A DNA stretch of 34,454 nt, taken from Candidatus Curtissbacteria bacterium RIFCSPHIGHO2_02_FULL_42_15 (lineage in GTDB: Bacteria > Patescibacteriota > Microgenomatia > Curtissbacterales > GWA2-41-24). Below the pieces are notes generated by a model. It saw only the letters and a program-made list of their open reading frames with translations, searched no databases and had not been told where the DNA came from. Positions 19,627 through 24,074 of the stretch are shown here, piece after piece. Position 1 is the first letter of the stretch; every line of letters begins with the position of its first letter. Location of the stretch: NCBI GenBank assembly GCA_001774865.1, contig MFBF01000056.1, positions 1-34,454 on the forward strand. Direction: 5' to 3'. Made by a program: the position numbers and the translations under genes.

Positions 19627-20124
19627 ATGAGCGAAGTAAAAATCATGGAAGAAATAAATCTTAACTCCAGCCAGCCTCAGCCTAAAACAAGTGAGCAATT
19701 GCGTGCTGTTCCCGACAAAACAAAATTTGCTAAAATCCTACCCTATTTTATAGTACTTGTAATTGTTGGTCTTGGCATTTTTACGGGATTAGTTTTAACC
19801 TCAGTTCAAAAGGCAAAAGCCCAGAATCAGCAGGCTAAGTCGATTGAAGAGGAAGAGCTTAGTCCCCAGCAGCAGGAGTCTTTTGCCCAGACATTCCGGG
19901 ATGAGGCAGAAGGGACTGTTGAGAAGAATGATGATCTTGATAAATACGCCCAGGGGACACACAAGTTATTGCGGCCCGGCGGAGAATCCCAGACTGCTTA
20001 TCTGACATCCTCTGTTCTGGATTTAGATGAATACGTCGGCAAAAAGGTTAAAGTATTTGGAGAGACTTTTGGCTCTTCCCAAGTTGGATGGCTCATGGAT
20101 GTTGGAAAAGTAGAGGTTCAATAA
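19627..20124 (+). CDS. Single-pass membrane protein ahead of ftsEX
   Basis: The 165-residue protein has a ~38-residue cytoplasmic segment, one membrane helix (about 39-61), a Gln/Glu-rich stretch and a small C-terminal beta domain (SVLDLDEYVGKKVKVFGETF to VGKVEVQ). The last part resembles OB-type folds, but I do not recognise a named family. It lies 19 bases before ftsE in the same direction, so a link to the FtsEX module is possible by context only. ATG 19627 is used; an in-frame ATG at 19645 is an alternative. Confidence 0.7.
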   Translation: MSEVKIMEEINLNSSQPQPKTSEQLRAVPDKTKFAKILPYFIVLVIVGLGIFTGLVLTSVQKAKAQNQQAKSIEEEELSPQQQESFAQTFRDEAEGTVEKNDDLDKYAQGTHKLLRPGGESQTAYLTSSVLDLDEYVGKKVKVFGETFGSSQVGWLMDVGKVEVQ

Positions 20125-20143: not shown

Positions 20144-20827
20144 ATGCTGGAATTTATTGCGGTTTCTAAACAGTTCCCCGACGGCCAAGTCGCCCTTGAT
20201 GATATTAACTTAAAAATCGAGGGTTCTGACTTTGTCTTTATCACAGGCCCTTCCGGTGCCGGCAAATCGACACTCCTTAGGCTAATTACCAAAGAACTTG
20301 TTTCAACATCAGGCCAGGTTTTGTTCAATGAAGACGATATTGCCAAGATTCCCGAAAACAAACTGCATATTTTAAGAAGGCGGATCGGAACGGTTTTTCA
20401 GGATTTTAAACTTCTTCTTTCAAGGACTGTTTTTGAAAATGTGGCGCTTTCTTTGGAGGTTTTGAAGAAATCGGACTCAGAAATTGAAAAAGAAGTTTCG
20501 GAAGCTCTTGAAAAGGTCGGAATTTTAGAAAAGGCGGATTATTTTCCTGCCCAGCTTTCCGGCGGAGAAGTGCAAAGAACAGCAATTGCCCGGGCTATAG
20601 TCTCAAAACCGGAAGTTTTGTTGGCCGATGAGCCCACAGGTGATTTGGACCCGAAAACGGCAGAGCAAGTTGTGGAACTTCTGGAAAAAATAAACAAAGA
20701 AGGCACCACAATCCTTATGGCCACTCATAATGCCGCAATTGTCAATAAATTTAAAAAAAGAGTTGTTCATCTCAAAAAGGGTAAAATAGAAAAAGACCAA
20801 AAAGAGGGCAAATATGAACCAGATTAA
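20144..20827 (+). CDS. ftsE: Cell division ATP-binding protein FtsE
   Basis: FtsE is the ABC ATPase that works with FtsX to switch on peptidoglycan hydrolysis at the septum. The 227 residues contain Walker [10 protein letters not shown], the Q-loop FQDFKLL typical of FtsE, the signature [15 protein letters not shown], Walker [13 protein letters not shown] and the switch His in ATHN. Length is normal, with a basic C-terminal tail. It overlaps ftsX by 14 bases, as is usual for this pair. Confidence 0.96.
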
Positions 20828-21686
20828 AAAAACGGTCAAACTTTTGCGAAGAAGTCCTTACCAGGCACTGGCGGCGGCTTTGGCAATGTCTCTTACCTTT
20901 TTCGTTTCTTCGATTTTTATAATCTTAATAATCGGAGGACAGATAGTTTTGAATTATATCGAGCAGAGACCCGAAGTGATTGTTTTTTTTAACGATGAGG
21001 CGAATCAAACCGAAATTGACGATTTGACAGCCAACGTAAGATCAACGGGATTAACCAAAGAGATCAAGTTTGTTTCAAAGGAAGAAGCCCTGGCAATTTA
21101 CAGGGAGCGCAATAAAGACGACCCGCTTTTGCTGGAATCCGTAACTGCCGATTTTTTGCCAAGATCGATTGATATTTCCGTTAACCGCGCCGCAGACATT
21201 AAGCAAATTACCGACCTTACCCAGGCAAGCGAACACGTGGATAAAGTAATTACGCCGGAAAATTTAGTCGAACAGCTTGTCAAGTGGACCAAGACCATTC
21301 GCCTCGGCGGTCTTGTTTTTGTTTCAACTCTACTTTCTGTCTCCTTCCTTATTATAATTATGGTCATCGGCATGAGGATTGCCATAAGGAGAGAAGAGGT
21401 TTCCATCATGAGTCTGGTTGGTGCAACCAAGTGGTATATAGCAAGGCCGTTTTTTATAGAAGGGGCGCTTTACGGGATTTTGGGTGCTTCAATTTCCGTC
21501 CTTTTAATCTACGTGCTTTTGCTTTTCTATTCGCCGCAGATCCAAAATTTCTTAGGCGACATCCGTGTTTTTCCGATTAACCCTTTGTTTTTCCTCTACC
21601 TTTGGGCGGCAGAAGCGCTGGCTGCAGCGCTTGTTGGAATTATCGGTGCCGCCATCGCTTTGTACAGGTACCTTAAGATTAGGTAA
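20814..21686 (+). CDS. ftsX: Cell division protein FtsX
   Basis: The 290-residue protein has the FtsX topology: a short cytoplasmic N-terminus, one membrane helix (about 20-45), a ~130-residue extracellular loop (EVIVFFNDEANQTEIDDL onward), then three more helices. The IAIRREEVSIMSLVGATKWY segment between helices 2 and 3 is characteristic. FtsX transmits the FtsE ATPase cycle to an extracytoplasmic peptidoglycan hydrolase or activator. The EnvC-like gene beginning 9 bases downstream is the obvious partner. Confidence 0.95.
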   Translation: MNQIKKTVKLLRRSPYQALAAALAMSLTFFVSSIFIILIIGGQIVLNYIEQRPEVIVFFNDEANQTEIDDLTANVRSTGLTKEIKFVSKEEALAIYRERNKDDPLLLESVTADFLPRSIDISVNRAADIKQITDLTQASEHVDKVITPENLVEQLVKWTKTIRLGGLVFVSTLLSVSFLIIIMVIGMRIAIRREEVSIMSLVGATKWYIARPFFIEGALYGILGASISVLLIYVLLLFYSPQIQNFLGDIRVFPINPLFFLYLWAAEALAAALVGIIGAAIALYRYLKIR

Positions 21687-21695
21687 GATATTAAT

Positions 21696-22835
21696 ATGCA
21701 AAAAAAGCTCTTTTTGCCTGTACTTTTTTTCCTGTCCCTCTTTTTTGCTCTTTTTCTATTTTCAAACCAGAAGATTTTTGCCCAATCGGATGTTAGTAAA
21801 TACCAGGACATTCAGAAAAAAATTGCCGAAACCGAAGCAAAAATCTCAGGTCTTAAAGCACAGGAAAGAGATTTAAACGGCCAAATTTCCCTGATAAACA
21901 GCCAGATAAATTTAACCGAATTAAAAATAGAAGAAGCTGAGGCTACCTTAAATCAGTTAGAAAAAGAAATCGGCGTATTAGGTTTTCGTATAGATTACAT
22001 CACGGAATCGGTCGATACTCTTGAGCGGCTTTTAAGAGAGCGCATTGTTGCCACTTACGAACAAAGTTTTGTTTCCAATTTAGAGCTTTTAATTGCCTCG
22101 CGCGACTTTTCCGACTTGGTTCTTAGGATTCAATACATCAAGCACATTCAGGAAAACGACAAAAAAGTTTTAGCAAGTCTGCAGGAAACAAAATCGAATT
22201 ATTCAAACCAAAAGGATGAAAGGGAAATTAAGCAAGCCCAGATTGAAGAGGTCAAGAAAAAGCTGGATGCAAACGTTGCCCTTTTGGCTGTCCAAAAAAA
22301 GGAAAAAGACGGATTTTTGGCGGTTGTCAAAAATGACGAACAGCGGTACCAAAATGAGCTGATGCGTCTTCAGGCGGACGCGGCTTCGATTTCGCAGGCC
22401 TTGGGTAACATTGGTGCTAAGCTTGGTTCTGTTTCAAAAGGTGAGGTGATTGCCTCGGTTGGTTCAAGCGGCTGTTCTACCGGTCCCCATTTGCATCTTG
22501 AGGTTTATACCGATGCAAAAGTCGAAGGCGGCAGAATCATCGGCAACAGGGTAGACCCGAAACCCTATCTTGAGAACGGACAGTACGAAAGGCCGGTACC
22601 GGGCTATTCTCAAAATGTCACAACCTGGTACGGAGAGGTTTACTTTTTGGGGACGCACACGGGAATCGATATTGCCAACCCGTTTGGCACGCCGATTAAA
22701 GCAATGGAAAAAGGCGAGGCTTATTTTACTTCTGCACCCTGCCGTTCCAATATTCCGGGCGGCACGCCGATTGGTAAAGGCATTGTTGTTGATCACGAAA
22801 ACGGTTTGGTTACGCTCTACTGGCATATTCCCTAA
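21696..22835 (+). CDS. EnvC-like exported M23 peptidase with permuted catalytic domain
   Basis: The 379-residue protein has a signal peptide (about 1-29), a long coiled coil (35-235) and an M23/LytM region. In ordinary M23 domains, HxxxD precedes the YGH block and then the final HLH. Here VSKGEVIASVGSSGCSTGPH and LHLE (His265, His267), with VDPKPYL, come first (248-291). THTGIDIA (His321, Asp325) follows, and the protein ends at GLVTLYWHIP (His377). All metal and catalytic residues are present but circularly permuted. As partner of FtsEX it probably cleaves, or activates cleavage of, septal peptidoglycan. No frameshift explains the order: the stop is immediate and a new promoter follows. Confidence 0.88.
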   Translation: MQKKLFLPVLFFLSLFFALFLFSNQKIFAQSDVSKYQDIQKKIAETEAKISGLKAQERDLNGQISLINSQINLTELKIEEAEATLNQLEKEIGVLGFRIDYITESVDTLERLLRERIVATYEQSFVSNLELLIASRDFSDLVLRIQYIKHIQENDKKVLASLQETKSNYSNQKDEREIKQAQIEEVKKKLDANVALLAVQKKEKDGFLAVVKNDEQRYQNELMRLQADAASISQALGNIGAKLGSVSKGEVIASVGSSGCSTGPHLHLEVYTDAKVEGGRIIGNRVDPKPYLENGQYERPVPGYSQNVTTWYGEVYFLGTHTGIDIANPFGTPIKAMEKGEAYFTSAPCRSNIPGGTPIGKGIVVDHENGLVTLYWHIP

Positions 22836-22872: not shown

Positions 22873-23697
22873 ATGCCCAAAAAAGTTGTCTATTCGGTTG
22901 TTCTTGTATCCTTTTTACTTTTTCACCCACCGGTTTTCGCCGATACAATAATAGTCATAAATGAACTTCTTCCAATGCCAAGTTCTGGTAATGATTGGGT
23001 AGAGCTCTACAATCCTTCCCAAAATGATATTGATGTCTCAGGCTGGATTTTGGATGACGAAGGAACTTCTAGCGATATGCTTAAAATCCCAGATAACACT
23101 ATAATTGCCAAACAATCTTTTAAATTATTTCATGTAAGTAACCGACTTAATAAAAATGGAGACACAATCTATCTAAAGAATGGAGCTAGCGAAATTGATA
23201 AGTATCAATACACCACTAGTGACACCGATGTTACTTTTGGACGCTATCCCGACGGAAGCGATAATTGGAACACTTGCTCCCCAACACCCGAATCAACTAA
23301 TTCTAACTGTGAAGTTATTGTAGATCCAAATCCAACCCCAACGCCTCAAAGCACAACTTCCCAAACAACTTCCTCAACATCCGGCAAATCAAAGTCGCCA
23401 AGTCCTTCAACCAAGGTCTCTCCCTCTCCGACCTCCAAAACCCAAAATTCTAAAACCGCCTCTGTTTTAGGTTCGAGTCGTACTCAGGAAAGCACAAAAT
23501 CACCCGTCACCGAGATTAACTCAAGCGCTTCTCCTACACCGTCTGCTGAGTCAAAGGCAGAGGAATCTTCAAACAGAATAAAAATCGCTGGAGCAGTTGC
23601 CGGATCCGGTGCGATAATAATGGGGTTGTCAGCGGGGCTGTATTTCTGGTTTAGGCGAAAATCTGTAAGCGAAAAAGAGGAAAGTGGGAACAATTGA
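22873..23697 (+). CDS. Membrane-anchored surface protein with lamin-tail domain
   Basis: The 274-residue protein has a signal peptide (about 1-24) and one lamin-tail (LTD) Ig-like domain (about 25-140), recognisable by INELLPMPSSGNDWVELYNP, DVSGWILDDEG, the GDTIYLKNG strand and TFGRYPDGSDNW. A ~95-residue Ser/Thr/Pro-rich linker and a C-terminal membrane helix (about 236-258) with basic tail follow. Bacterial LTD domains are found on secreted and surface proteins, often with nucleases; none is present here. The linker contains SVLGSSR. It is transcribed from its own promoter and likely coupled to the VanZ-like gene. Confidence 0.85.
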   Translation: MPKKVVYSVVLVSFLLFHPPVFADTIIVINELLPMPSSGNDWVELYNPSQNDIDVSGWILDDEGTSSDMLKIPDNTIIAKQSFKLFHVSNRLNKNGDTIYLKNGASEIDKYQYTTSDTDVTFGRYPDGSDNWNTCSPTPESTNSNCEVIVDPNPTPTPQSTTSQTTSSTSGKSKSPSPSTKVSPSPTSKTQNSKTASVLGSSRTQESTKSPVTEINSSASPTPSAESKAEESSNRIKIAGAVAGSGAIIMGLSAGLYFWFRRKSVSEKEESGNN

Positions 23698-24074
23698 AGC
23701 GTAATTCACAAAATTCAATTTTAGGCAGGTGGCTGCCTGTTTTTTTATGGGCGGCTGTCATTTTTGCCTTATCCTCAATTCAGCAAATAACGGTTGCCGA
23801 GTTCTTTATATGGGATTTTGCGGCAAAAAAGGTTGCGCACTTGACAGAATATGCGGTACTTTATGCATTGTTCCTGCGGGCAACAGAAAAAAACTGGGTT
23901 TTTTCATTTGTCCTGACAATGATTTACGCAGCAACTGATGAAATTCATCAGAGCTTTGTTCCCGGCAGGAATGCCGCAGTCTATGACTTGGCTTTTGACT
24001 TTTCAGGTGCGGCAATTTCTGCATATGTAATATGGAAGCTAGAACAAATTCACCCAAAGAAACAAAAAAAGTAG
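23694..24074 (+). CDS. VanZ-like membrane protein
   Basis: The 126-residue protein has four membrane segments and the VanZ pattern: KVAHLTEYAVLYALFLRA after helix 1-2, then TDEIHQSFVPGRNAAVYDLAFDFSG. VanZ relatives are small membrane proteins; the founder gives low teicoplanin resistance, but most chromosomal members have no known role. The start is TTG at 23694, overlapping the preceding stop (TTGA), with an AGGAAAG site upstream. The 3' end overlaps tsaE by 43 bases in another frame. Confidence 0.85.
   Translation: MKRNSQNSILGRWLPVFLWAAVIFALSSIQQITVAEFFIWDFAAKKVAHLTEYAVLYALFLRATEKNWVFSFVLTMIYAATDEIHQSFVPGRNAAVYDLAFDFSGAAISAYVIWKLEQIHPKKQKK

Follow-up and report, generated by a model that had tools for sequence, protein, structure and literature searches.

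A circularly permuted M23 domain on a coiled-coil protein encoded beside ftsEX and conserved in Patescibacteria

In a 34,454-nucleotide stretch of a Candidatus Curtissbacteria genome (the window), the gene that follows ftsE and ftsX encodes a 379-aa protein in which the two halves of an M23 peptidase domain occur in the reverse of the usual order, raising the question of whether this is a genuine circular permutation and whether the protein could be a directly catalytic partner of FtsEX. The divisome ABC ATPase gene ftsE (20144..20827, + strand) is identified by the NCBIfam model TIGR02673 (FtsE; 278 bits, cut-off 264.85) and overlaps ftsX (20814..21686, +), whose product, a permease-like protein with an extracellular domain, matches the Pfam models FtsX_ECD (2.3e-15) and FtsX (2.3e-10) and scores 175 bits against NCBIfam FtsX_Gpos, under its cut-off of 225. 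The partner gene (21696..22835, +) starts 9 bp past ftsX and is an intact open reading frame from ATG to stop. Just upstream of ftsE lies a gene for a 165-aa protein with one hydrophobic segment and no Pfam match above cut-off (19627-20124), and directly downstream of the partner are genes for a secreted protein that has a lamin tail domain and is anchored to the membrane at its C-terminus (22873-23697), and then for a VanZ-like protein (23694-24074).

Residues 1-29 of the partner (21696..21782, +) make up a signal peptide or a membrane segment, a hydrophobic N-terminus that ends in IFAQS and in which a helix is predicted at residues 7-22. The coiled coil that follows (residues 33-237; 21792..22406, +) matches Pfam CC_PcsB above cut-off (1.5e-07). 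The NCBIfam EnvC equivalog (NF008644) matches this coiled coil only, over residues 34-234, and at 48.8 bits versus a cut-off of 270 it is not met. With a gene directly after ftsEX and a secreted coiled coil joined to a hydrolase domain, the protein has the layout of an FtsEX-coupled hydrolase. It belongs to a Patescibacterium of the Microgenomatia type, its nearest named relatives are from Candidatus Curtissbacteria (73% identity), and homologues over its full length are found in the order, the class and the phylum.

The case for a permutation rests on how the C-terminal region aligns with the M23 family. PF01551 matches the protein with 61.8 bits (gathering cut-off 28.7) in two stretches, such that residues 320-378 correspond to profile positions 2-52, while the DNA upstream of that segment (22419-22517) corresponds to positions 59-91. 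M23 proteins in the PDB likewise align as two pieces in reversed order. From the PF01551 and PDB alignments, the C-terminal half of the domain is placed first (residues 239-293, VSKGEVIASVGSSGCSTGPHLHLEV...DPKPYL; 22410..22574, +), with the coiled coil entering just ahead of it, and the N-terminal half, which covers profile positions 2-52, is placed last (residues 296-378; 22581..22829, +). All five zinc and catalytic residues of M23 have their equivalents here: the first half carries an HLH motif (22488..22496, +) with the catalytic His265 and the zinc ligand His267, and the second carries an HTGID motif (22656..22670, +) with the zinc ligands His321 and Asp325, followed by a YWH motif (22818..22826, +) with the catalytic His377, two residues short of the C-terminus, so that the chain stops just past YxH. 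The usual M23 order, in which the HxxxD half precedes the HxH half, is thus not met, either here or in the 132 proteins described below. Restoring the canonical order of the halves yields a single continuous PF01551 match that spans profile positions 2-91 and scores 71.2 bits, compared with 64.9 bits for the native domain. The sequence-only reading had proposed that the HLH half precedes the HxxxD/YxH half, that these five residues are all kept, and that the protein combines an ftsE-ftsX neighbourhood with an EnvC-like coiled coil; each of these claims held, the residue positions included.

A draft genome of 69 contigs invites the objection that an assembly error, a frameshift or a pseudogene has left a truncated conventional M23 gene that merely mimics a permutation. 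A frameshift joining the frame to a downstream HLH block had been named at the outset as what would refute the permutation, and no HLH block is found in any of the three forward frames of the 37 bp between the stop codon and the next gene. A homologue is present in all 15 genomes of the order, the window included, and is collinear in the other 14; one (L004) is cut short by the end of its contig, and the remaining homologues of the order are permuted. The arrangement and its end point are shared by every complete relative in the order and by 132 proteins in total, and the permuted order is also seen in single-contig genomes (e.g., G040, G020 and G076). Because the homologues of the order are collinear, 132 permuted proteins are FtsEX-linked, and no downstream HLH block exists, chance, frameshift and assembly error are excluded.

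To describe the distribution of the arrangement, each locus fetched from a class sample and a phylum sample was typed according to which half-domain model and which motifs come first. Permuted M23 domains on coiled-coil proteins (n=132, FtsEX-linked) occur in approximately 44 families of Patescibacteria. In the combined order and class sample (128 genomes), we observe 98 permuted proteins, 29 with a cysteine-peptidase domain and 0 with a conventional M23 domain, while the rest of the phylum yields 34 permuted, 25 conventional M23, 15 CHAP, 7-8 C39-like and 1 SLT. The permuted gene lies directly after ftsX in 122/132 cases, is further off in 2, and in 8 has no ftsX on the fetched stretch; ftsE in turn adjoins 187 of 193 ftsX genes. 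Distances from ftsX range from -507 to +368 between stop-to-stop frames, and it is because frames were taken stop to stop that negative values of up to 507 bp arise. A scan of the genome collection returned the permuted order in 79 of the best 80 named loci, with one (L225) cut off. As an internal control, 18 M23 frames without a coiled coil that could be resolved in the fetched loci (two of them repeat fetches) all have the conventional order. Two permuted frames (L127 and L131) have no detected coiled-coil score, and coiled-coil sequence is visible in them by eye. What was first noted in one genome, with the suggestion that the same order be sought near ftsEX in other CPR genomes, is therefore much wider, a class-wide feature of Patescibacteria. 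The permutation itself, its conservation, the retention of its catalytic set and its adjacency to ftsEX are shown by these data.

Occurrence in bacteria beyond Patescibacteria was covered for plasmids and phages only. An apparent occurrence in TM6 (CP011212.1, L293, about 272.8-274.0 kb) was rejected, as its position and gene match a genome (G087) placed in the class of the window, and the record name "candidate division TM6 bacterium GW2011_GWF2_28_16" is probably wrong. Rhodococcus plasmid proteins and the endolysins of Corynebacterium phage Stiles and Rhodococcus phages RGL3 and Alpacados, which gave one-piece matches across the permuted junction, were also set aside, their sequences having the conventional order.

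A separate observation concerns cyanophages. The C-terminus of gp33 of Synechococcus phage P60 (L316:3361-3777) was retrieved from a viral structure library as a chain-order match to the domain model (TM 0.52, probability 0.99), and the same C-terminus is found in two other cyanophages (L323 and L324). In gp33, STGPHLDV is followed by HRNRGSFGVD and then by FVHG at the C-terminus, and cyanophage internal virion proteins carry STGxHLD, HxxRGSxGxD and a terminal FxHG, again a reversed motif order. Unlike the Patescibacteria proteins, gp33 and its relatives have HLD rather than HLH, a longer H-to-D spacing and neither FtsEX nor a coiled coil, and Pfam M23 barely detects the domain (E 0.029 in S-CBP1). 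These C-termini look like another permuted M23-like domain that has diverged, and that may share its origin with the one in Patescibacteria or have arisen separately.

Conservation within the permuted proteins is concentrated on the active site. An alignment of 78 diverse members, which omits most members with a displaced first histidine, has only eight invariant columns: H265, H267, P300, H321, D325, G340, Y375 and H377. Across all 132 proteins, H265 is retained in 132/132, H267 in 131/132, H321 in 122/132, D325 in 131/132 and H377 in 129/132. One protein (L079) has HLD in place of HLH. In 10/132 (L086, L092, L098, L102, L103, L137 and L138, and L088, L097 and L099), the first zinc histidine is either lacking or out of place, and this minority could be inactive or altered in metal binding. 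The chain ends no more than 7 residues from the YxH column in nearly all of the 132, one having 13; two tails of zero length past this column are truncated frames.

Whether the reversed halves come together as one fold was addressed with AlphaFold2, run with alignments derived from the loci. The full-length model has a pLDDT of 87.5 and a pTM of 0.65, and residues 236-379 alone are predicted as one compact domain (pLDDT 92.2, pTM 0.88). In Foldseek searches of the PDB, the top matches of the full model are EnvC of the FtsEX-EnvC complex (8tzl) and EnvC bound to FtsX (6tpi). The domain-only model returned no M23 match from the PDB, not even to a half-domain, in a search that aligns in chain order. 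As a permuted domain is hard to match in this way, the null result neither confirms nor excludes the M23 fold, and the fold assignment rests on sequence and model confidence. The structure prediction proposed with the first reading thus gave a single compact domain, and it is likely that this domain forms one intact zinc site, although the zinc geometry was not measured. A referee might instead propose a domain-swapped dimer, in which the halves pair between two partner molecules and the active sites are shared; FtsEX is a dimer, and our models are of monomers only. However, the monomer prediction is already compact (pTM 0.88). Published structures show one molecule of EnvC or RipC bound to FtsEX, which also counts against the swap, and we consider it very unlikely.

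The same coiled coil carries other domains in other lineages, namely conventional M23, C39_2 (C39-like), CHAP or SLT, demonstrating that the hydrolase domain has been replaced on a common scaffold. C39_2 is found on related coiled coils in L190, L194, L204 and others, and SLT in L136; two SpoIID-domain proteins (L018 and L025) match the coiled-coil model weakly. Some genomes have two or three coiled-coil genes in tandem with differing domains (L083, L085, L099, L104, L117 and L126), including permuted and conventional M23 side by side (L083, L085 and L126) and mixed arrays (L099, L104, L109 and L117), such that the tandem arrays overall comprise permuted M23, conventional M23, CHAP and C39-like domains.

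In a tree of M23 domains with the halves arranged in canonical order, 49 of the 55 permuted rows group together, and constraining every permuted row to a single clade raises the likelihood above that of the free search (p-AU 0.749). The alignment is short, and a single origin of the permutation is compatible with this tree, not proven by it. In the tree of coiled coils, monophyly of the permuted proteins is rejected (lnL 638 lower, p-AU 1e-7), and 21 label changes are required, at least 10 of which are forced by well supported branches. The trees fit a history in which the permutation arose once and catalytic domains were then swapped repeatedly on a conserved coiled coil linked to FtsEX. Such cassette-like movement among hydrolases of unrelated fold fits a catalytic output.

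The connection between coiled coil and domain also differs, with a median of 13.5 residues in permuted proteins (quartiles 13-15) versus 32 in the conventional M23 versions (quartiles 26-34); domain starts were set by motif offsets, and the comparison is only suggestive. A bolder reading is that permutation of the LytM fold happened about once, at an early stage of Patescibacteria evolution, and produced a catalytic module that is gated mechanically. Its short connection would tie FtsEX directly to the active site, taking the place of the EnvC restraining arm, and on the same coiled coil the module would later have been traded for C39-like, CHAP or conventional M23 ones. We consider this reading possible but less likely than not.

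What, then, might the protein do? The reading we favor, and consider likely, is that of an endopeptidase that is gated by FtsEX and cuts by itself, its LytM domain being circularly permuted; zinc folding, peptidase activity, FtsX binding and gating are all inferred. The EnvC/PcsB-like coiled coil would be expected to dock on the extracellular domain of FtsX, an expectation drawn from coiled-coil homology only, without binding data. ATP-driven movement of FtsEX would then be transmitted through the coiled coil to the M23 (LytM) domain, a zinc endopeptidase on this reading, which would itself cut peptidoglycan crosslinks at the septum. We prefer this reading because the catalytic set is intact, the restraining arm is reduced, Amidase_3 is rare and the domain is swapped with C39_2, CHAP and SLT.

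The main rival is a regulator of the EnvC type, in which the domain folds and activates another hydrolase without cutting peptidoglycan itself. The LytM domain of E. coli EnvC no longer has its zinc ligands (W320, V324 and Y401; PMC11627006), replacements that are visible in the E. coli sequence, and a restraining arm of about 50-57 residues keeps it in check until FtsEX frees it to activate amidases (PMC11627006, PMC7668044). In favor of such a role, the coiled coil and the operon are similar to those of the EnvC system, the same genomes also encode stand-alone conventional M23 proteins, and an Amidase_3 that could be activated is found in 14/126 genomes of the class. None was found in the window's own genome, which is 77% complete. 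Against it, EnvC lacks the zinc ligands, whereas here the five catalytic residues are invariant in the 78-member alignment; approximately 55 residues of the EnvC arm are absent in comparison with E. coli EnvC, leaving one 23-residue helix; and exchange with C39-like, CHAP and SLT domains fits catalysis rather than amidase binding. We therefore regard a purely regulatory role as unlikely. The contrast drawn by the sequence-only reading between a degenerate EnvC and an intact catalytic set held up, while its suggestion of a directly catalytic partner, strengthened by the domain exchange and the rarity of Amidase_3, is still an inference.

No relevant description of a permuted M23/LytM domain or permuted peptidoglycan hydrolase was found in the open literature that we searched, which left subscription papers and preprints outside its scope. 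The domain order was not encountered in the family models and solved structures compared here, FtsEX-coupled hydrolases and M23 domains being kinds already known. A natural permutation of the M23/LytM domain, conserved across a class together with all of the catalytic residues, departs from the constant motif order on which annotation of these enzymes relies. That the same coiled coil bears unrelated folds implies that gating by FtsEX should not hinge on one domain surface, and Patescibacteria gain a plausible, directly acting septal endopeptidase, its activity inferred.

When compared to known systems, the protein resembles EnvC in being secreted, in having a coiled coil ahead of an M23/LytM domain and in its partnership with FtsEX, here inferred. 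EnvC, however, has the canonical order, lost ligands and a long arm and acts via amidases, whereas here the domain is permuted and retains the ligands, with the arm reduced to a single short helix and Amidase_3 largely absent. Catalytic FtsEX partners are already known in PcsB and RipC, each with its own catalytic domain (PMC11627006), CHAP in PcsB and NlpC/P60 in RipC. The present protein resembles both in joining a coiled coil to a directly catalytic hydrolase domain, where catalysis is in our case inferred, and it resembles PcsB further in its CC_PcsB match and in the CHAP domains borne by the same coiled coil in other Patescibacteria; the difference is one of hydrolase fold, as neither is M23 or permuted. 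With conventional M23/LytM enzymes (LytM, lysostaphin, MepM and ShyA), it shares the motifs HxxxD, YxH and HxH and membership in the same sequence family, but the order of the halves is reversed, with the chain cut between YxH-L and V..Gd.
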